Under the pieces are notes generated by a model. That model did no database searches and was not told the DNA's origin. It saw nothing but the letters and a program-made list of their open reading frames with translations. The position numbers and the translations under genes were made by a program. From Agrobacterium tumefaciens (GTDB lineage: Bacteria; Pseudomonadota; Alphaproteobacteria; Rhizobiales; Rhizobiaceae), in NCBI RefSeq assembly GCF_013318015.2, contig NZ_CP115842.1, forward strand, positions 1,096,001-1,160,000: a stretch of 64,000 nt of DNA. Direction: 5' to 3'. This document shows, piece by piece, positions 26,915 through 37,805 of the stretch (positions are counted from its first letter, which is position 1; every line of letters starts with the position of its first letter).

Positions 26915-28207
26915 TCAGGAGGCTGCCTTGATGGAAAGACTTTCGAGATAGGCCGACGGGTTTTCCGGGTCGAAGACCTTGCCGTCGAAGAAGGTTTCCT
27001 TGCCGCGCGACGTGGAGGCGGGAATATCGGCAACACCGAGATCCTTTGCAGCGTCGCGCCAGATGTCCTCGCGGTTGACCTTGGCAACCAGCGCCTTCAC
27101 GTCCGTATCGGGTGCAAATTTACCCCAGCGGATGTTTTCCGTGATGAACCAGCTGTCGTGGCTGCGGAAGGGATAGGACGCGTGATCCTGCCAGAACTTC
27201 ATCTGCAGACCGGTATTTTCCAGCACGCGGCCGTTGCCGTAATTGATATTGCCCTTGAGGCGGCCAAGAACGTCCTTCGGTGGCACGTTGAACCATTGGC
27301 GCTTGCCGAGGATCGTGGACATCTCCTCCTTGTTCGCCATCTCATCGCACCATTGCTGGGCCTCCATCACGGCCATCAGCAATGCCTTGGTGGCGTTGGG
27401 GTTCTTTTCCACCCAGTCGGCGCGCATGCCGAGCGCCTTCTCGGGATGCCCTTTCCAGAGTTCCCCGGTGGTACAGGCAGTGAAGCCGATGCCCTGATTG
27501 ACGAGTTGCTCGTTCCAGGGTTCGCCCACACAGAAGACGTCCATATTGCCGACCTTCATGTTGGCGACCATCTGCGGCGGCGGAACGACGATGGTGGAGA
27601 CGTCCTTGTCCGGGTCGATGCCGCCGGCGGCCAGCCAATAGCGGATCCACAGATCATGCGTGCCGCCGGGAAATGTCATGGCAGCCTTGATTTCCTTGCC
27701 TTCTGCCTTCTTCTTCTCGAAAGCTGCCTTCAGCTTGGACGCGTCGAGCTGAACGCCGGTTTCAGCATATTCCTTGGCGACGGAAATACCCTGGCTGTCG
27801 AGATTGAGGCGGGCGATAAGCGCCATCGGCACAGGCACGTTGTTCTGCGTCACCTTGCCGGTATGCATGAGATAGGGCATCGGGGTCAGGATATGCGCGC
27901 CATCAATGCCGTTCGATGCGCCGCCGAGCACGAGATTGTCACGTGTCGCACCCCAGGATGCCTGTTTGAGAACCTCGACATCCGGCATGCCATGCTTGGC
28001 GAACAGTCCCTTTTCCGCCGCGATGATAAGCGGGGCGGCGTCGGTCAGCGCGATGAAGCCGATTTTCGCGCCCTTCACTTCCGGCTCAGCCGTGGCTGCG
28101 AAAGCGCCTGACGGAAAAGCGGTGCGCACGGCGGTAACAAGGGCTGCGGCGGCTGTCGTCTTCAGTATGGTGCGGCGGCTGACATCGCCCGAGAATATCT
28201 TTTTCAT
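26915..28207 (-). CDS. nrtA: Nitrate ABC transporter periplasmic binding protein (Tat-exported)
   Basis: The 430-residue protein carries a twin-arginine signal (SRRTILKTTAAAALVTA) in its first 40 residues. Its NrtA/CmpA-type domain includes IGFIALTDAAPLIIAAEKGLF, GASNGIDGAHILTPMPY and CVGEPWNEQLVNQGIG. It binds nitrate in the periplasm for NrtBC. ATG 28207 is favoured because AAGGGG lies about 9 bases upstream. It heads the structural operon nrtABC-nirBD-nasA-cysG, preceded by a long leader with a sigma-54 promoter. Confidence 0.94.
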   Translation of the reverse strand: MKKIFSGDVSRRTILKTTAAAALVTAVRTAFPSGAFAATAEPEVKGAKIGFIALTDAAPLIIAAEKGLFAKHGMPDVEVLKQASWGATRDNLVLGGASNGIDGAHILTPMPYLMHTGKVTQNNVPVPMALIARLNLDSQGISVAKEYAETGVQLDASKLKAAFEKKKAEGKEIKAAMTFPGGTHDLWIRYWLAAGGIDPDKDVSTIVVPPPQMVANMKVGNMDVFCVGEPWNEQLVNQGIGFTACTTGELWKGHPEKALGMRADWVEKNPNATKALLMAVMEAQQWCDEMANKEEMSTILGKRQWFNVPPKDVLGRLKGNINYGNGRVLENTGLQMKFWQDHASYPFRSHDSWFITENIRWGKFAPDTDVKALVAKVNREDIWRDAAKDLGVADIPASTSRGKETFFDGKVFDPENPSAYLESLSIKAAS

Positions 28208-28272
28208 TCGCATCTTCCCCTTATTGGACCACCGCATGGGTGGCGCGTTCGCTTGCGAAAAAACCTGAAAAT

Positions 28273-28324
28273 AAAAAAAACGCCGCTCGGAGTTTGCGCC
28301 TTCGGAACGGGAAATGTTCCGGGC
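28273..28324 (-). promoter_or_regulatory. Candidate NasT-controlled attenuator in the nrtA leader
   Basis: Reading the minus strand, GCC-CGGAAC..GTTCCG-AA-GGC (28324-28298) can form one hairpin. CCGTTC (28310-28305) can instead pair with GAGCGG (28288-28283) just before a run of eight T (28280-28273). The two structures share CCGTTC and exclude each other, as expected for antiterminator and terminator. NasT-type ANTAR proteins act on such leaders. Pairings were found by eye. Confidence 0.45.
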
Positions 28325-28414
28325 AGCAAAACCTTGCGACGTCTATGTCTGTGAAAGCGCTTATGCCGCGCCCTGCTCGCCCCGATCGCCGTTGACCAGT
28401 GCAAAGACGAAGAC

Positions 28415-28429
28415 GCAAGAGGCGTGCCA
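28415..28429 (-). promoter_or_regulatory. Sigma-54 (RpoN) promoter of the nitrate operon
   Basis: The minus strand reads TGGCACGCCTCTTGC, an exact -24/-12 element (TGGCACG-N4-TTGC). The start would be near 28403, giving a leader of about 195 bases before nrtA. A TTTGCGCAAA palindrome at 28525-28534, about 120 bases upstream, is where an enhancer-binding protein such as NtrC could sit. I see nothing else in the rest of this 377-base gap. Confidence 0.85.
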
Positions 28430-28584
28430 GTTTTACTTATGGAAGCTATCGCCTTGGAAACAAACGGAATTTCCGAGATTGAATCGGACGATTAAATTTT
28501 AATCAGTAGGAATTTTGTCTATGGTTTGCGCAAATGGATAAATTCCGCGCTTGAAATTTGCGCAGCTTGCCCGGCCGACGGCTG

Positions 28585-29871
28585 TCAGGCCTCGCCTTGG
28601 GAGATGGAAAACGGGGCAGAACTGCGCACGGAAAAGCCATTCACATATCCAGCAATGTCTGCGGGATCGAAAACAAAACCGTCCACGAACCGGTCACCCG
28701 CCTCCTGCCCTTCGACTCGAATATCGGCATCATCGGGCGCATTGGCATCGCCCAGTGCCGCCCGATAAATATCTGGACGGTAAGCGGACAGGGTGGCCTC
28801 CACACCACCTTGCGAAAACTCCGTCTGCCCCCAGCGGATCATCTGGCTGTAAATCCACAGTGCCTGGCTCTGGCGCGGATAATTGGCATGGCCGCCGTGG
28901 AAGAGGAAATATTTGTCGATGACCCGGCGGTTGCCCTGGCTGTCGATGTTGAATTCACCGGCAAGCACATGGCGGATGATGCTTTGCGGCGCACCGATAT
29001 AACGCGGATCGGCAAGTGTCCTGCTCAGATCATCGTGATTTTCCGCAAGGTCGCACCAACGTGCGGCGGCATCGAGCGCCGTCAGCAGCCGGCTGACCGT
29101 TTCCTGCTGGCTTTCGGCCCATTCAGGCCGCATCCCGATCACTTTTTCCGGCGCAGACGGCCACAAATCCTGCTTGGCAGCGACGATCCTGCCCACACCG
29201 CGCTCGGCAGCAACGATGTTCCACGGTGCACCGACACAGAAACCATCTATGGCGCCCGCCGCCAATGCATCCGACGTCAATGGCGGTGGTACGACCACCA
29301 GTTTGACGTCGTGATCGGGATGAATGCCACCAGCGGCGAGCCAATAGCGAAATTCGTAATTGTGAGAGGAAAACGGGTAGGTCATGCCGAGCGTCGGTGT
29401 AGCTTCGCCCCGCGCTCGCATGTCATCCAGCACCTGCTTTAAGGCCTTCGCATTTTCCAGCGCCCCCGCCGTTTCGGAAAGCCCCGTCAACGCCTTCATC
29501 CGGGCAAAAAGCCGCGTCGAAAGCGTTATAGCATTGCCGCCGCGCCCAAGTGAAAACGGCGTGATCGTCGGCGAAGGGTTCGAGCCGAGTCCGAGCATGG
29601 AGGCAACCGGCATCGGCGACAGCATATGGGCAATGTCGAATTGCCGGAATGCCAGCCGGTCGCGCACATTCGCCCAGGACACATCCTTGACGAGATCGAG
29701 CGTCAGGCCTTCGCGCTCGGCAAAGCCGAATTCCGCCGCAGCAATGAGGACGGACGCATCGACAAGAGGAATAAAACCTGCCCGCAGGATTTTTTGCCGG
29801 TCGCTGCCAACAATTGCCGGCGCGCCCGCTTTTGAACCGGCCGATTTTTCCTGTCCCGCCATATCATACAC
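28585..29871 (-). CDS. nasS: Nitrate sensor NasS (cytoplasmic NrtA-like protein)
   Basis: The 428-residue protein is a homologue of NrtA (shared GFIPLVDASVLIAAAEFGFAE, FDIAHMLSPMPVA and FCVGAPWNIVAAERG segments) but has no signal peptide, so it stays in the cytoplasm. In Azotobacter, Paracoccus and Bradyrhizobium, NasS binds NasT and releases it when nitrate is present. It follows nasT by 27 bases in the same transcript direction and lies just upstream of the operon it should control. Confidence 0.9.
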   Translation of the reverse strand: MYDMAGQEKSAGSKAGAPAIVGSDRQKILRAGFIPLVDASVLIAAAEFGFAEREGLTLDLVKDVSWANVRDRLAFRQFDIAHMLSPMPVASMLGLGSNPSPTITPFSLGRGGNAITLSTRLFARMKALTGLSETAGALENAKALKQVLDDMRARGEATPTLGMTYPFSSHNYEFRYWLAAGGIHPDHDVKLVVVPPPLTSDALAAGAIDGFCVGAPWNIVAAERGVGRIVAAKQDLWPSAPEKVIGMRPEWAESQQETVSRLLTALDAAARWCDLAENHDDLSRTLADPRYIGAPQSIIRHVLAGEFNIDSQGNRRVIDKYFLFHGGHANYPRQSQALWIYSQMIRWGQTEFSQGGVEATLSAYRPDIYRAALGDANAPDDADIRVEGQEAGDRFVDGFVFDPADIAGYVNGFSVRSSAPFSISQGEA

Positions 29872-29898
29872 TCCTCGACTGTCCCGCCGGCGGGTTCG

Positions 29899-30486
29899 TT
29901 ACATCAACAGACCGGCCGCGGTGACCACGCTTTGCGCGATCTCGGATATTTTCTTTTTCTCGTTCATCGCCGTTTGCCGCAGAAGCGCAAAAGCCTCCTC
30001 TTCGGACAGGCCACGCATTTTCATCAAAATGCCTTTGGCGCGCTCGATGACCTTGCGCTCCTCAAGCGCCGATTTTGCTTCGGCAAGTTCCTGTCGCAGA
30101 CGGCTGAAAGCGTTGAAGCGGCTGACCGCCATATCGAGGATGGGTTTGACGCGTTCTTTCTTCAGCCCGTCAACGACATAGGCGGAAACACCGGCCTCAA
30201 CGGCCGCCTCGATGGACGCGGTATCGGAGCGGTCGACAAACATGGCGATCGGCCGGCCGACCGTGCGTGTCAACTGAAACAGATGCTCCATCATGTCGCG
30301 GTTGGGATTTTCAAGGTCGATGAAGATGACATCGGGCTGCAGCGTCTCGATGGTCCGCGCCACGCCGTGCACCTCATGGATGACCGTCACGCGATTATAC
30401 CCGGCCTCGCGCAGCCCCTCCTCGATGATCGAGGCGCGGATCGCGTTTTCGTCTATAACGAGAATGGTGAGGTCGCGAAGCGTCAT
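29899..30486 (-). CDS. nasT: Antiterminator NasT (receiver-like domain plus ANTAR RNA-binding domain)
   Basis: The 195-residue protein has an N-terminal pseudo-receiver domain (LTILVIDEN; VIFIDLENPNRD) and a C-terminal ANTAR domain (residues about 125-190) with ALEERKVIERAKGILMKMRG and LSEEEAFALLRQTAM. It should bind leader RNA of the nitrate operon and prevent termination when not held by NasS. ATG 30486 is used; a TTG at 30522 is also in frame. Confidence 0.93.
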   Translation of the reverse strand: MTLRDLTILVIDENAIRASIIEEGLREAGYNRVTVIHEVHGVARTIETLQPDVIFIDLENPNRDMMEHLFQLTRTVGRPIAMFVDRSDTASIEAAVEAGVSAYVVDGLKKERVKPILDMAVSRFNAFSRLRQELAEAKSALEERKVIERAKGILMKMRGLSEEEAFALLRQTAMNEKKKISEIAQSVVTAAGLLM

Positions 30487-30535
30487 GTCGGCATTGATGA
30501 CGCACCGCAACAAACTTGGCAATCAGGCGCCGATA

Positions 30536-30588: not shown

Positions 30589-31242
30589 TCAGGACGCCCG
30601 CTCGAGCGCCTTCAAAACCGTCCGCTCGGAAAGATTGAGATAGATTTCCATCTCGTCACCGGCCTCAGCCGCCTTGCCCTCTTCCATCAGCGACAGGATC
30701 TTGCTGTTCATGTCCACAAAGGGGGAATGGAGCTGCTCCGGGTCTTTCAGCAGGCCGAAACAAAGCCTGAGCTCAGCGGCAATGCGCTCGTAAAAATCGC
30801 TGAGACGAGCGCTGTCGAGAAGGTCGACCACGGCGGCGTGGAACTTCATGTTGGCGCTGCCCACGCCTAACCAGTCTGCCTGGTCGCGCTTTATCCTGGC
30901 ATCATCGACCGCCGTGCGCATTGTCCGGATGGCCGGGTGCTTGTGCCAGGCCTGACGCAGCGCCCCGCATTCCACCATGCGCCGCACCCTGTAAATATCA
31001 ATCACCGAAGCCAGGGTGGGAACGGCGACAAAAACGCCGCGATTGGCCTCGTGACGCAGCAGACCATCCTTGGTCAGGAGACGAAAGGCTTCACGCAGCG
31101 AATTGCGGGAGACCTCGAAACGTTCACTGAAGGCTGCTTCCGAAAGACGCTGGCCCGGCATCAGTTCACCGGAGATCAGCAGGGTGCGAATACCCTTTGC
31201 CAATCGATCCGCAAGCGGCAGACCCTCTATCGTTTCCGTCAT
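30589..31242 (-). CDS. GntR-family (FadR/FCD subfamily) regulator of the oxoprolinase-like operon
   Basis: The 217-residue protein has a GntR winged helix (residues about 10-75: LISGELMPGQRLSEAAFSERF, VSRNSLREAFRLLTKDGLL) and an FCD ligand-binding domain (DIYRVRRMVECGALR; NMKFHAAVVDLLDS). ATG 31242 follows AAGGAAAG. It is divergent from the NRAMP-like/PxpA operon, and a site matching the FadR-group consensus lies between them. Its position parallels KipR in the Bacillus ycsF-kip operon, although that regulator is of another family. Confidence 0.93.
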   Translation of the reverse strand: MTETIEGLPLADRLAKGIRTLLISGELMPGQRLSEAAFSERFEVSRNSLREAFRLLTKDGLLRHEANRGVFVAVPTLASVIDIYRVRRMVECGALRQAWHKHPAIRTMRTAVDDARIKRDQADWLGVGSANMKFHAAVVDLLDSARLSDFYERIAAELRLCFGLLKDPEQLHSPFVDMNSKILSLMEEGKAAEAGDEMEIYLNLSERTVLKALERAS

Positions 31243-31410
31243 GGCGCTTTCCTTAAGAGCAATGCAACGTTGGGAATTCCGTGACAGGCATGTTCGGACA
31301 CGGCATGATTGCCCATAGCACAAAGCTTCAGCAAAGCGCCAAAAAAACGTGATGAATTCATACTCATAACGTCCAACAAATAGACAAAATAAAAGAACGA
31401 TTATCATTTA

Positions 31411-31429: not shown

Positions 31430-31505
31430 ATCTCACGGAACAAGACAAGATCGGTGGCATAAAGCATCCGCGAGGGGCGGATTGCGACAGGAGCGGAGAA
31501 AATCC

Positions 31506-32747
31506 ATGGAGCAGAAAAAGCTCACCCCGACTGCCGATCTCAAAATGTCAAAACGTGCATCTCTTCTGGGAGCAATCTTCCTGATGGCAACATCTGCCAT
31601 CGGTCCCGGCTTCATCACGCAGACGGCGACATTCACCATGCAGCTTGGTGCCGCATTCGCCTTCGGCATTCTTGCTTCCATCCTCATAGACTTCGTCGTT
31701 CAGCTCAACATCTGGCGCATCGTAACGCTGACGCGCATGCGTGCGTCCGACATCGCCAATGCTGCCATTCCGGGTTCCGGCTATCTTCTCGCCATTCTCG
31801 TCATCATCGGCGGCCTTTTCTTTAATATCGGCAATATTGGCGGCACCGGCCTCGGCCTGAACGCCATCTTCGGGCTCGATCCGAAAATCGGCGGCGCCAT
31901 CAGCGCAATCTTTTCCATCGCCATCTTCGTTTCCAAACGGGCTGGCCTCGCCGTCGACCGGTTCATCATTTTCGCCGGTATCCTGATGATCGTGCTGACG
32001 CTCTACGTTGCATTCGTATCCGCGCCGCCGGTCGGTGATGCCTTCCGCCAGACTTTCCTGCCGGACACAATCAATTTCGCGACCATCACCACCATCGTCG
32101 GCGGCACCGTCGGCGGCTACATCACCTATTCCGGCGCGCACCGCCTGCTGGACCGGGGAATGGTCGGCATTGAAAACCTGCCCGCCGTCAACCGCGCCGC
32201 TCTGACCGGCATCGCTGTCACCGGCATCATGCGTTACGTGCTGTTCCTCGCCATTCTCGGCGTTGTCGCCAGCGGCGTCGTCATCGATACATCGGGCCAG
32301 GCCGCCAATCCCGCCGCACAGGCTTTCCGGTCGGCCGCGGGCGATCTCGGCTTCCGTCTATTCGGCATCATCTTCTGGGCTGCGGCCATCACAAGCGTCA
32401 TCGGCGCGGCGTATACCTCCGTCTCGTTCCTGCCCGTGTTCAAGCAGGATATGACGGAACGCGCCCGCAACATGGCGACGGTCATCTTCATCGCTGTCTC
32501 GCTCGTCTGCTACCTGCTCATCACGACGCCGCCCGCCGCCATGCTGGTCTTCGTTGGCGGCCTGAACGGTCTTATCCTGCCCATCGGCCTCAGCATCTTC
32601 CTGTTTGCCGCATGGAAGCGCGAAGACCTGATGGGCGGCCACCGCTACTCGCGCATTCTGCTCGGGCTTGGCGTTCTGACATGCGCATTGACGTGGTACA
32701 TGGGCTACAAGTCCGCCGGCACCATTTTCGGCCTGCTCGGCCTGTAA
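31506..32747 (+). CDS. NRAMP-superfamily transporter (YcsG-like) without metal-site motifs
   Basis: The 413-residue protein has about eleven hydrophobic segments and the NRAMP-like start GAIFLMATSAIGPGFITQTA. The DPGN motif expected in segment 1 and the MPH motif expected in segment 6 (here VGGTVGGYITYSGAHR) are absent, so transition-metal transport is doubtful. The family branch is that of B. subtilis YcsG, encoded beside oxoprolinase genes. Import of an organic acid or lactam such as 5-oxoproline is a reasonable inference. ATG 31506 has GGAG about 8 bases upstream. It is the first gene of the operon. Confidence 0.85.
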   Translation: MEQKKLTPTADLKMSKRASLLGAIFLMATSAIGPGFITQTATFTMQLGAAFAFGILASILIDFVVQLNIWRIVTLTRMRASDIANAAIPGSGYLLAILVIIGGLFFNIGNIGGTGLGLNAIFGLDPKIGGAISAIFSIAIFVSKRAGLAVDRFIIFAGILMIVLTLYVAFVSAPPVGDAFRQTFLPDTINFATITTIVGGTVGGYITYSGAHRLLDRGMVGIENLPAVNRAALTGIAVTGIMRYVLFLAILGVVASGVVIDTSGQAANPAAQAFRSAAGDLGFRLFGIIFWAAAITSVIGAAYTSVSFLPVFKQDMTERARNMATVIFIAVSLVCYLLITTPPAAMLVFVGGLNGLILPIGLSIFLFAAWKREDLMGGHRYSRILLGLGVLTCALTWYMGYKSAGTIFGLLGL

Positions 32748-32868: not shown

Positions 32869-33636
32869 ATGGCCGCTATCGATCTCAACAGCGATCTTGG
32901 CGAAAGTTACGGCGCGTGGCGCATGGGAGATGACGAGGCGATGCTTGCCATCGTTTCCAGCGCTAACATCGCCTGCGGATTTCACGCAGGTGACCCGGCC
33001 GGCATCTACCGGACCGTTAAGGCCGCTGCCGAAAAAGGCGTGGTCGTCGGCGCCCATGTTTCCTACCCGGACCGCGTCGGCTTTGGCCGCCGCGATCTGG
33101 ATGTGACCTCCGAAGAGCTGATCGCCGATGTCATCTACCAGATCGGTGCACTAAAGGGTGTCGCCGCCGCAGCCGGAACCACGGTGCGTTACGTGAAGCC
33201 GCATGGCGCGCTTTACAACCGCATCGCCAATGACGCGAAACAGGGACAAGCGGTCATCGACGGTATAAAGGCCGTCGATGCCTCGCTGGTGCTGATGGGC
33301 CTTGCCAATGCGCCCATCCTCGATCTCGCCCGCAAGGCAGGCCTTGCCGTCGTCGCGGAAGCCTTCGCTGACCGTGCCTATACGCCCGAAGGCCAACTCG
33401 TCTCGCGCCGCGAGGCGGGCGCCGTACTGCACGACGCTGCCAAAATCGCCAACCGGATGGTGCAGCTTGCCCGCGAAGGAACACTCGAAGCCATCGACGG
33501 CAGCAGCATCAAGATCGAAGCACAATCCATCTGCGTGCATGGCGACAGCCCCGGCGCGGTGGCGATCGCCCAGGAAATCCGCCGCCGTTTCGAAGCCGAG
33601 GGCATCGAAATCCGCTCTTTTGCATCCATTCTCTAA
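32869..33636 (+). CDS. pxpA: 5-oxoprolinase subunit A (LamB/YcsF family)
   Basis: The 255-residue protein is a LamB/YcsF family member with [13 protein letters not shown] at the N-terminus, [28 protein letters not shown], and [10 protein letters not shown]. In the known PxpABC enzyme, ATP-dependent opening of 5-oxoproline to glutamate requires PxpA with PxpB and PxpC. ATG 32869 follows AAGGGAGG. PxpB and PxpC are encoded two genes downstream as one fused protein. Confidence 0.92.
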
Positions 33637-33647
33637 AAGGGCGACCA

Positions 33648-34457
33648 ATGACGATACCCTTATCCTTTCTGAGCCACACCAATGCGGATGCCGCCCGGAC
33701 GGCCCGCGCCGATTATCGTGGCGGCCTCGTTGCACCGACCTCCGGCATCGCTCCCGGTTTCACGCAGGCCAACATGATCGTGCTGCCGCGCGACTGGGCC
33801 TTCGATTTCCTCCTCTATGCGCAGCGTAATCCCAAGCCCTGCCCGGTGCTCGATGTTTCAGATCCCGGCTCACCAACCACGCTTCTTGCCCCCGGTGCCG
33901 ATCTCAGGACCGACCTACCGCTTTACCGTATCTGGCGGGACGGCAAACTTGCCGAGGAAACGGCGGATGCGACCGCCGCATGGGCAGAGCGTGACGATCT
34001 CGTCGCTTTCCTGATCGGTTGCAGCTTTACCTTTGAAACGCCGATGGTCGAAGCGGGTATCGAAATCCGTCACATGACCGACAAAAGCAACGTTCCGATG
34101 TATCTGACCAACCGCCCCTGCCGGCCGGCCGGCCGGTTTAAGGGCAACATGGTCGTTTCCATGCGACCGATCCCGGCTTCGCGCGTGGCCGATGCCGCGA
34201 CAATTTCAGGACGTTTTCCGGCGGTTCACGGTGCGCCCGTGCATGTCGGCGCGCCGGAAGAAATCGGCATATCGGATCTCGCGAAGCCGGATTTCGGTGA
34301 TGCGGTGCGGATCGAACCCGGCGAGGTTCCAGTTTTCTGGGCCTGCGGCGTGACGCCTCAGGCTGCAGTCATGGCGTCCGGCGTGCCGTTCGCGATTACC
34401 CATGCGCCCGGGCACATGTTCATCACCGACATTCCCGATTCTGCCTATCACGCGTGA
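33648..34457 (+). CDS. DUF1445 protein (YcsI-like; putative hydro-lyase / D-glutamate cyclase family)
   Basis: The 269-residue protein belongs to the YcsI/DUF1445 family: [21 protein letters not shown] near the start, [36 protein letters not shown], and [11 protein letters not shown] with [10 protein letters not shown] near the end. Mammalian D-glutamate cyclase, which interconverts D-glutamate and 5-oxo-D-proline, contains this domain, which fits the neighbouring oxoprolinase genes. Bacterial members are usually labelled putative hydro-lyases, so the exact reaction is open. It starts 11 bases after pxpA. Confidence 0.87.
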
Positions 34458-34464
34458 GGATATG

Positions 34465-36063
34465 ATGCGTTTTCTCCCCGTCAGCCTCACCACCATTCTC
34501 GTCGAACTTGCCGATCTCGATGAAACGCTGGCGCTGTTCGCCTCGCTTCAGAACGATCCGATCGAGGGCATCGACGAAACAGTTCCGGCTGCCCGCACCC
34601 TGATGATCCGTTTCCGCCCCGAAAAGATTGGCGCAGAGGCGCTGGTTGCACGGCTTTCCAGCCGCGATCTCTCCGCAAAAATCGCGCCCTCGGACAATCT
34701 GGTGGAAATCCCCGTCCATTATAACGGCGAAGATCTGGCCGACGTTGCCGAACTGACCGGCATGAGCGTCGACGAAGTCATCCGCCGCCATACCGAAAGC
34801 GAATTCACCGTGGCCTTCTGCGGTTTCGCGCCCGGCTTCGGTTATCTGGTTGGCGGCGATACGGCTCTTCACGTGCCGCGCCGGCAAAGCCCGCGTACCC
34901 GCATTCCGGCGGGTTCGGTGGCGCTGGCTGGCGCCTTCAGCGGCGTCTATCCGCAAAACAGCCCCGGCGGCTGGCAGATCATCGGCACCACACCGGTGAA
35001 GATGTGGGATATAGACCGTGATCCCGGCGCGCTTTTCCAGCCGGGTTATCGCGTGCGTTTCTTCGATATGGACAAGGCCGGAAGAACGGTTGATGTTCCC
35101 ACCTCAGCGCCGCGCACCGCCCGCCCTGAGATGACAAGAGAAGGCCCGCATTTCGAGGTGCTCGCGGCCCCCATGCCCGCCATTTTTCAGGATCTCGGCC
35201 GCTTCGGCCAAACCGGACAGGGCGTCTCCGCCTCCGGCGCACTGGATCGTGGCGCGTTTAACGCCGCCAACCGTATCGTCGGCAATCCCGTCAACTCGCC
35301 GTGTCTCGAGCTGACGCTCGGCGGCTTTTCCTTCAAAAGCACGAGCCGCGCCGTTATCGGCATTGCGGGCGCGCCCTGCCCCATCACCGTCAAGACCGCA
35401 GATCGCAGTTTCGCCGCACAACCCCATGTTCCCGTGTCTCTCGAACCCGGCGATATCGTAACCTTGGGTCAGCCGCCGAAGGGCATGCGCTGTTATCTTG
35501 CTGTGCGTGGCGGGTTCGATGTCGAGCCCGTGCTGGGCAGCTATGCGACGGATACGCTCGCCGTAGTGGGTCCAGAAAGCGTGACTGCGGGCACTACTCT
35601 GCCGCTGAAGGGCGAAAAGACAGGACTTTCCAGCGTGTCTGTCGACGAGGCTCCGGCCTTCGATCCGCCGGCAACCGGCGATATTGTGACGCTCGACGTG
35701 GTTCTCGGACCGCGTACCGACTGGTTCACGCAAAAGGGCCTCGATACGCTGACCGGCCAGCTCTGGCAGGTCACGCCGCAATCGAACCGCGTCGGCATCC
35801 GCCTTGCCGGCGAAGTGCCGATGGAGCGCAGGGACAGTGCCGAATTGCCGAGCGAAGGCACGGCCACCGGAGCAATCCAGATTCCCCATAGCGGCCAGCC
35901 CGTTCTTTTCCTTGCCGACCACCCGTTGACCGGCGGCTATCCCGTCATCGGCGCGGTCGCGGAATACCATCTCGATCTTGCGGGGCAAATCCCCGTCAAT
36001 GCCAAAATCAAGTTCCGCCCGATCGGCCCTTTTGCCGAAATCGCGGCGGCTAAAAGTCTGTAG
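34465..36063 (+). CDS. PxpB-PxpC (KipI-KipA) fusion, carboxyltransferase-like
   Basis: The 532-residue protein fuses a KipI/PxpB domain (CT_C_D, residues about 1-210, with [15 protein letters not shown] and GWQIIGTT) to a KipA/PxpC domain (CT_A_B, about 225-530, with [19 protein letters not shown] and [19 protein letters not shown]). In E. coli these are separate 5-oxoprolinase subunits. The same two domains form the carboxyltransferase part of urea carboxylase. A biotin carboxylase-BCCP gene follows 11 bases downstream, so a biotin-dependent reaction is possible. ATG 34465 is preferred over 34462 by spacing from GAGGA. Confidence 0.9.
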
Positions 36064-36074
36064 GGAGAATAGCG

Positions 36075-37805
36075 ATGAAAAAAGTGCTGATTGCCAATCG
36101 CGGCGAGATCGCGGTGCGGATCATCCGCGCATGCCGTGATTACGGCCTGCAATCGGTTGCCGTTTATGCCGATCCCGATCAGAATGCGCTATTCGTTCGG
36201 TTGGCGGATGAGGCCTATGCGCTGGAAGGCGTCCGCCCCGCCGAAACCTATCTCGATATCGCCAAGCTGATCGCGATTGCCAAACGCGCCGGCGCGGATG
36301 CCGTGCATCCCGGTTACGGCTTTTTGTCCGAACGCGCCGAATTTGCGCAGGCGGTTATCGATGCCGGCCTTAGCTGGATCGGCCCCGACCCACATGTCAT
36401 TGAAGCGCTGGGCGACAAGGTGGAAGCGCGGCGCATCGCCACCGGCGTCGGCGCACCGCTGGTGGCCGGCAGTGACGGCCCCGTCTCTACCGCCGCCGAA
36501 GTCACCGCTTTTGCCGAAGAATACGGCCTGCCCGTCGCCATCAAGGCAGCGCATGGCGGTGGTGGGCGCGGCCTGAAGGTCGCATGGAAGATGGAAGAGA
36601 TCGCCGATCTCTACGAATCCGCCGTTCGCGAAGCGACCGCCGCTTTCGGTCGCGGCGAGTGCTTTCTCGAACGCTTCCTAGACCGGCCCCGCCATATCGA
36701 GGCGCAGGTTTTGGCCGACAAGCACGGCAATGTGCTGGTGCTGGGCACCCGCGATTGCTCGCTGCAACGTCGGAACCAGAAGCTGATAGAGGAGGCTCCG
36801 GCCCCGTTCCTGTCTGCCGAACAGCGACAAAAAATCCACGACGCGGCAAAGGCGATCTGTGCCGCCGCGGGCTATTCCGGTGCCGGCACCGTCGAATTCC
36901 TGCTCGGCGTTGATGGCACGATTTCTTTCCTGGAGGTCAATACGCGCCTGCAGGTGGAACATCCCGTTACCGAGGAAACCACCAGTATCGATCTCGTCAT
37001 CGAGCAGTTCCGCATCGCCGAGGGCCACACCCTGCGGGTGGTTGAAACGCCGGAACCGCGCGGCCACTCTATGGAATTCCGCATCAATGCCGAAGATCCC
37101 GGCCGAGGATTCCTGCCAACACCCGGCACGATCTCGATTTTCGATGCTCCTTCCGGCCCCGGCATCCGTATGGATAGCGGCGTCGTCAGCGGCTCCAGCG
37201 TGCCTGGCGTATTCGACTCGCTGATGGCGAAGCTCATCGTTACGGGTACCGACCGCGATCAGGTTCTGCGCCGCGCGCGCCGCGCGCTGAAAGAATTCCG
37301 TATCGAAGGCATTGCCACGGTTCTGCCGTTCCATCGCGCCGCAATCGAGACGGACGACTTCATCGGCACCGACGGTTTCAAGGTTCATACCCGCTGGATC
37401 GAGACCGATTTCGCCGCCATGCCTGACGCCATGGAACGTCCTGCACCGGCTGAAGACCCTTCCATCACGCGCACCTTTCTGGAAATCGACGGCAAGCGTG
37501 TTTCTGTCGGCCTGCCGAACCTGCTGCTCTCCGGCCTCGGCGCTGTCAGCGGCGGCAATGCCGCTGCCCCCGGCGCGTCGGTCAAGGAGAAGGAAGGTGA
37601 AATTATCGCTCCCGTTTCCGGCACCTTGCAATCGTTCAAGGTGACCGATGGCGAAACTGTTTCCAAAGGCGATCTTCTGGCCGTCATGGAAGCCATGAAA
37701 ATGGAAACGCAAATCGTGGCGACGAAGGCCGGCAAGGTCCGCCTGATCGTCAAGGAAGGCGACTATCTTCAGGCGGGCGCGGCACTTCTCGAAATTGCGG
37801 AATAA
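36075..37805 (+). CDS. Biotin carboxylase with fused biotin carboxyl carrier domain
   Basis: The 576-residue protein starts with a biotin carboxylase domain ([35 protein letters not shown]-grasp loop [25 protein letters not shown]) through about residue 450. It ends with a biotinyl domain whose acceptor is Lys542 in EAMKMET. No carboxyltransferase domain is present in the chain. It resembles the alpha subunit of acyl-CoA or urea-type carboxylases. Its partner is probably the KipI-KipA fusion encoded immediately upstream, which supplies the missing domain type. It is the last gene of the operon. Confidence 0.92.

Follow-up and report, generated by a model that had tools for sequence, protein, structure and literature searches.

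Does Agrobacterium tumefaciens use biotin to open the ring of 5-oxoproline, a spontaneous damage product? The question is raised by an operon in the window, the 64,000-nucleotide stretch from position 1,096,001 to 1,160,000 of contig NZ_CP115842.1 (assembly GCF_013318015.2) that was analysed here. Next to the gene for PxpA, the ring-opening hydrolase subunit, this operon encodes a PxpB-PxpC fusion, which is the proposed carboxyltransferase (CT), and a biotin carboxylase (BC) fused to the biotinyl domain of a biotin carboxyl carrier protein (BCCP). The two fusion proteins very probably constitute one biotin-dependent enzyme that works with PxpA, as comparison of their sequences with those of relatives indicates. 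By analogy with urea carboxylase, it is probably a split enzyme of that type, which would carboxylate 5-oxoproline or a close lactam, likely on nitrogen, for hydrolysis by PxpA. This suggests that some bacteria open the 5-oxoproline ring by biotin-based attachment of CO2 and not by phosphate alone.

An earlier note, made from the letters of this DNA, had placed the PxpB-PxpC gene 11 bases ahead of the BC-BCCP gene, with an intact EAMKMET motif in the latter. Coordinates, gap and motif are all correct: the stop codon of the first gene occupies positions 36061-36063 and the ATG of the second begins at 36075. A Pfam scan of ten window proteins, with NCBIfam curated cut-offs for comparison, assigns CT_C_D to residues 1-190 (E 2e-66) and CT_A_B to residues 253-519 (E 2.4e-80) of the PxpB-PxpC fusion, and Biotin_carb_N, CPSase_L_D2, Biotin_carb_C and Biotin_lipoyl (510-574) to BC-BCCP. 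Every domain kind of urea carboxylase (BC, CT_A_B, CT_C_D and biotinyl) is found, as the note had proposed, split over two chains. The BC motifs and the biotinyl AMKM are both intact. At positions conserved throughout the family, nothing has obviously been lost from the CT domains, in a comparison that covers conserved positions and not mapped catalytic residues. Across relatives, the BC motif E.N.R.Q.EH is present in 112/112 linked biotin carboxylases and the biotinyl lysine in all 110 BCCPs found; further motif patterns matched fewer rows, mostly outside type III (defined below).

No other carboxyltransferase lies near the operon, again as the note had stated. The whole genome has four matches to the acyl-CoA carboxyltransferase family PF01039, all away from the pxp operon: two adjoin biotin carboxylase matches on C2, and the two elsewhere are taken as AccA/AccD from shorter frames. 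An adjoining PF01039 gene, which would mark an alpha subunit of the AccA3 type, is missing beside the window BC-BCCP.

The pairing of the two genes is conserved well beyond this genome. A survey of the order Rhizobiales found CT_A_B in 100 of 199 genomes, in 132 match rows. Sixteen frames of at least 1175 amino acids were taken as single-chain urea carboxylases, without fetching their flanks, and 12 of them serve as references below; one partial row was dropped, and 113 rows fetched with about 7 kb per side (less at contig ends), together with two from this genome, made up 115 loci. A BC lies within 6 kb in 41 of these, on the same strand in 40 of the 41. With 6 BC matches in the 6.0 Mb of this genome, chance alone would put a BC this close to roughly 1% of genes, so this adjacency exceeds the chance expectation. 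The conserved association of both fusions with pxpA, for which the note had proposed a survey, is found: PxpA lies within 6 kb in 40 of the 41 BC-linked loci and all eight PxpB-PxpC fusions in the order adjoin a BC-BCCP fusion.

A wider sample came from scanning named genomes with the PxpC alignment and taking the best 80 of 583 loci by likeness to the window PxpC, not by their neighbours. Among these 80, the BC-BCCP fusion is present in 20/20 alphaproteobacterial, 20/20 betaproteobacterial and 26/26 gammaproteobacterial loci, and in 5 of the 14 from Actinomycetes. The PxpB-PxpC fusion is seen in 65 of the 66 proteobacterial loci, the exception (L203) being cut by a contig end. Loci of the window's kind are called type III here. 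Of 77 pairs of type III PxpBC and BC genes, 42 overlap, and the overlap is 4 bases long in 30 of these, with start codons set by a simple rule. PxpA is present in 68 of the 69 named type III loci that have PxpBC fusion and BC, a cyclase-family gene in 36 and an Nramp-like gene in 33. In Microlunatus parietis, CT_A_B, BC and a biotinyl domain are, according to Pfam, joined in one open frame (L233:7653-10493) beside PxpA and PxpB; this is one genome, in which an assembly error is possible in principle.

Phylogeny ties the partners together as well. Across a 127-row PxpC tree, 6 changes account for the BC-free label, where shuffled labels require about 41 on average (0/500 as low). The BC-linked rows fall into clade II (25 rows, all with BC), clade III, which is the window's (8/8), clade IV (5/8) and clade V (2/4 within 6 kb), plus L113. 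A BC tree of 79 rows places the clade III BCs, 28 proteobacterial and 5 actinobacterial, in one clade (support 100). The clade II BCs group with L057 (100; clade II without L057 reaches only 29), and those of clade IV form a group (99) that neighbours the AccC of this genome (93). Clade V is split, because the BCs of L069 and L113 join those of urea carboxylases as their sister group (96). The BC clades largely match the CT clades, and the several separate BC clades suggest that biotin carboxylases joined PxpBC-type carboxyltransferases more than once.

Structural comparison points the same way. The AlphaFold model of the PxpB-PxpC fusion has a mean predicted local distance difference test score (pLDDT) of 90.7 and a predicted template modelling score (pTM) of 0.88. 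Its best Foldseek match is TTHA0988 of Thermus thermophilus (3opf, 3ore, 3oep), a fusion that likewise places PxpB before PxpC, with 30% identity (template modelling score 0.85 to 0.87 by target length over the whole chain). Further matches are Msmeg0435-0436 of Mycobacterium smegmatis (3mml), E. coli YbgJK (5dud), 9yx5, and K. lactis urea amidolyase and urea carboxylase (5i8i, 3va7). The best PDB sequence matches of both fusion halves are chains of 3mml and 9yx5. BC-BCCP matches 5mlk ('Acetyl-COA carboxylase') over its full length (E 1.1e-214) and, second best, the chain of AccA3, itself a BC-BCCP protein, in 30hu/9yx5 (E 2.1e-209). Relatives of both window proteins therefore occur in one entry, one bound to the other's complex. 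The entry, released 2025-11-26 and known here from its title and chain names, is 'Structure of the long chain acyl-CoA carboxylase complex from Mycobacterium smegmatis with MSMEG_0435-MSMEG_0436 bound', and contains AccA3 and two 'allophanate hydrolase' chains. The mycobacterial system differs from the window's in that KipI and KipA are two chains and in that AccA3 serves as a subunit common to acyl-CoA carboxylases (PMC11001197). No paper on 9yx5 was found in the open-licence literature.

Conserved adjacency, the one-chain fusion of M. parietis, the matching BC and CT clades and the solved complex of relatives are the reasons for holding that the two fusions belong together, and we infer that they form a complex in A. 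tumefaciens. The same evidence, with adjacency held across classes, tells against a rival account in which PxpABC opens 5-oxoproline by phosphorylation without biotin, while BC-BCCP belongs to a separate acyl-CoA carboxylase or acts as a regulator and is co-transcribed by chance. The absence of an acyl-CoA CT near the locus tells against it too. What speaks for the rival, besides the PxpABC of B. subtilis and the lack of a BC beside the genes of E. coli and of 69 rows of the order (all below), is that BC-BCCP falls among general NCBIfam biotin carboxylase models, none above cut-off among the 25 matches listed, and that the partner in 9yx5 is an acyl-CoA carboxylase complex. On balance this account is unlikely.

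Several observations nevertheless weigh against biotin dependence. Recombinant PxpA, PxpB and PxpC of B. subtilis reportedly gave an ATP-dependent 5-oxoprolinase with no BC added. Within the order, 74 of the 115 loci have no BC within 6 kb, and 63 of these have PxpA; two of the 74 have a BC further off, in L124 just past the DNA that was fetched and in L065 about 13 kb away. The 69 rows of the order that fall outside the BC-linked groups of the PxpC tree are all without a BC within 6 kb. The pxpBCA genes of E. coli have no adjoining BC, yet their PxpC groups with the partly BC-linked clade IV (97). L074, L075 and L134 belong to clades of which only part is BC-linked, and they have no evident dedicated BC, judged by positions and frame lengths. 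A K238-type BC pattern is found in 84/112 linked BCs (79/79 type III and actinobacterial BCs, 0/25 in clade II), although the lysine column itself is at least 97% identical over all BC rows. The KipI/KipA pair of 9yx5 sits on a whole acyl-CoA carboxylase complex and need not touch AccA3 or act on it, and the PxpA relatives among PDB matches did not include a 9yx5 chain. No biochemical result tying biotin to these proteins was found in the accessible literature. PxpABC of C. glutamicum works, and the excerpts of PMC13274462 mention no adjacent BC.

Two residue differences were tried as markers of biotin use and rejected. Arg342 is found in 41/43 BC-linked and 8/72 unlinked rows (L065 and L124 counted as linked), a difference confounded with ancestry: the tree holds only 4 independent pairs (sign test p 1), and this too tells against the case for biotin. 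A W/V difference in PxpB is, by eye, not found in BC-free E. coli, so that within the order alone does it set BC-free rows apart.

If the two fusions act together, urea carboxylase (EC 6.3.4.6) with allophanate hydrolase offers the closest model for their chemistry. It has the same four domain kinds, and the proposed scheme shares with it a separate hydrolase after the carboxylation step. BC-BCCP would spend ATP and bicarbonate to carboxylate its own biotin, and the biotin arm would swing over to the CT site in the PxpB-PxpC fusion. There the carboxyl group would be handed to the amide of 5-oxoproline, or of a close lactam, most likely at its nitrogen. PxpA would open the activated ring to give N-carboxyglutamate, which would lose CO2 and leave glutamate. 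The analogy makes N-carboxylation of 5-oxoproline the most economical reading. Were it true, activity should require bicarbonate, the BC-BCCP gene and a protein that avidin inhibits.

The substrate is suggested by PxpA and by the transporter. Of the residues that are fixed in PxpA of E. coli and of BC-free loci, type III PxpA retains nearly all; the exceptions are position 67, changed from P to V or I in 72/72, and variation at a few others, for example 9, 129, 156 and 248. In contrast, all clade II rows have altered N120, R183 and G228, most of them have an altered R172 as well, and K113 and E167 are altered in 5/7 rows of clade IV. Type III is therefore the best candidate for true 5-oxoproline use, while clades II and IV may use other amides. 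Clade II loci such as L052 and L056 are a common operon of the order, PxpA-BCCP-BC-PxpB-PxpC, and perhaps encode a biotin-dependent amidase for another substrate.

The Nramp-like protein of the operon scores under the NCBIfam Nramp cut-off. Its relatives at these loci lack DPGN (0/36) and MPH (0/36), which we take to be the metal-ligand motifs of Nramp. The Nramp-family protein PxpT of C. glutamicum is required for growth on 5-oxoproline, and YcsG of B. subtilis for its use as a nitrogen source (PMC13274462), so the window protein is a probable importer that would bring in 5-oxoproline. The D-glutamate-cyclase-family protein would deal with the D form or with interconversion. That gene is also what might lead one to a different lactam or cyclic amide, for example 5-oxo-D-proline, as the substrate of a biotin-dependent enzyme that still works with PxpA, and the altered residues of clades II and IV show that substrates may vary in the family. 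Given the residues kept by type III PxpA and a transporter gene of the same family as known 5-oxoproline transporters, this alternative seems improbable. Every domain present would also fit a split urea carboxylase whose substrate is urea, guanidine or some other open-chain amide, and split forms seem to occur in Actinomycetes, but this reading is very doubtful, because the window fusion carries DHPLTGGY in place of the DGPSLGGF of 26/26 single-chain urea carboxylases (a signature derived here from those 26 rows), the window proteins reach 148 and 508 bits against the TIGR02712 urea carboxylase cut-off of 1303.85, no amidase is among the ten window proteins scanned, and the two split forms examined, picked by signature, adjoin allophanate hydrolase.

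The proposed 5-oxoproline carboxylase differs from urea carboxylase in its two chains, its CT signature and the replacement of the amidase by PxpA. The note's reading, a lactam-opening system distinct from both known enzymes, is supported in part; the distance from PxpABC is less certain. PxpABC (E. coli pxpBCA, B. subtilis, C. glutamicum pxpTABC) has the same PxpA, PxpB and PxpC domains, and in C. glutamicum and B. subtilis likewise an Nramp-family transporter gene (PMC13274462). The window differs in having PxpB and PxpC in one chain, a dedicated BC-BCCP alongside, and DHPLTGGY where E. coli PxpC has DAQTTGGY. Window PxpA exceeds the cut-off of the subfamily model NF003814 (381 bits against 226). 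The fusion stays below those of the PxpB equivalog TIGR00370 (138.1 against 145.55) and the PxpC equivalog NF045499 (170.8 against 500), and it passes that of the broader 5-oxoprolinase/urea amidolyase family TIGR00724 (242.5 against 230.2). The motif DHPxTGGY is found in 73/74 proteobacterial type III rows and 68/71 actinobacterial rows, while the 69 BC-free rows of the order have other forms, mostly D[RH]Q[TP]TGGY.

Actinomycetes complicate the distinction. A FastTree built from 287 rows (281 different) gathers into one exclusive clade (99) all 74 rows of proteobacterial type III and the 71 from Actinomycetes (66 different) that lack the urea carboxylase signature. A 98-row tree under a better model unites the two kinds again (100), and three BC-free rows are sister to them (94). 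Most actinobacterial PxpC loci fetched have no BC in the stretch read, and one (L216) has a PxpB-PxpC fusion with no BC there. The system may therefore not be wholly distinct from PxpABC. Each of the ten actinobacterial genomes checked (10/10) has 3 to 6 biotin carboxylase matches. L276 and L284 (L284:5942-7933, - strand) encode CT-only proteins with the urea carboxylase signature beside allophanate hydrolase, with no BC in the 15 kb read, and so a CT that lacks a neighbouring BC in Actinomycetes need not be biotin-free. More tentatively, and as a view that could well prove wrong, one family may hold two chemistries, biotin-borne carboxylation and biotin-free phosphorylation. The carboxylating form would comprise proteobacterial type III, which has a BC-BCCP of its own, and many Actinomycetes, which would borrow an AccA3-like subunit that also serves fatty-acid synthesis, and much 5-oxoproline salvage there would be a hidden biotin pathway.

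The biotin-linked pxp system is also wider than the single operon that the note had described. A second pxp locus (L011:7342-13353) lies on the same contig about 40 kb downstream of the first, beyond the window. Its gene order is BCCP, BC, PxpB, PxpC and PxpA, followed by an aminotransferase, and it belongs to clade IV. As each locus carries its own BC, both pxp loci of the genome are linked to a biotin carboxylase. The genome holds in all 6 biotin carboxylase, 2 CT_A_B, 2 PxpA and 3 Hydantoinase_B matches, the last of which indicate that it may have an OPLAH-type enzyme as well.

Enzymes of that type, the ATP-dependent caprolactamase and OPLAH-type 5-oxoprolinase, likewise open lactams with ATP. 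Biotin is not used there. A carboxy-activated lactim is among the mechanisms considered for them, and their proteins are dissimilar to PxpABC (PMC8453981). Lombard and Moreira (2011) left open whether the wider urea-carboxylase-like CT domains pair with other biotin carboxylases (PMC3199775), a question on which the present finding bears directly. If true, it adds a further use of the urea carboxylase type of CT and a new chemistry for opening stable lactams, and links 5-oxoproline salvage to biotin and bicarbonate; in Actinomycetes, salvage would perhaps be tied to the carboxylase subunit that it would share with lipid synthesis. Anyone who looks through genomes must be able to see the pairing, and a structure group has released a mycobacterial assembly, but no paper describing a biotin-dependent 5-oxoprolinase was found among the titles and abstract openings listed from the open-licence literature. 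Lactiplantibacillus pentosus is reported to have additional genes for BC and BCCP and, discussed separately from these, pxpB and pxpC but no pxpA (PMC12427679, 2025).

The Meister-era 5-oxoprolinase of Pseudomonas putida was considered as the same enzyme and set aside. Its reported masses are 64 + 51 kDa for component A and 82 kDa for B in one paper (PMC8453981), 75 and 63 kDa in another (PMC6061476). Pseudomonas type III chains come to about 61 to 62 kDa (BC-BCCP), 56 to 60 kDa (PxpBC) and 27 kDa (PxpA), and the enzyme is kept as a lead.

Table 1. Genes of the pxp operon and its regulator in the window
Feature	Positions	Strand	Evidence
GntR/FCD regulator, probable local regulator of operon (predicted)	30589..31407	-	Pfam GntR and FCD; divergent from operon
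Nramp-like transporter, probable 5-oxoproline importer (YcsG/PxpT type)	31482..32747	+	PF01566 E 1.4e-20
PxpA, LamB/YcsF ring-opening hydrolase subunit	32869..33636	+	PF03746 E 3.8e-102
D-glutamate cyclase family (DUF1445) protein	33648..34457	+	PF07286 E 9.9e-69; NF003969 415.8 bits, cut-off 324
PxpB-PxpC fusion (CT_C_D + CT_A_B), proposed carboxyltransferase	34465..36063	+	Pfam; AlphaFold; Foldseek
BC-BCCP (biotin carboxylase-biotinyl) fusion with EAMKMET	36075..37805	+	Pfam; PDB sequence matches; motifs

All six type III genes (Table 1) also occur together on two plasmids, with the GntR gene at the equivalent position. One (L328) is a Klebsiella plasmid on which the set lies near an IS1 transposase gene and mobI; the other (L327) is a large plasmid whose record bears the name Roseateles sp. 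XES5. Viral contigs, when scanned, gave no relative. In the window, the genes beside the pxp operon at 26915-30522 are possibly nitrate-related: an NMT1-like (NMT1_2) substrate-binding-protein gene lies at 28585-29871, a gene that resembles it by look alone at 26915-28237, and 29899-30522 encodes an ANTAR response regulator.

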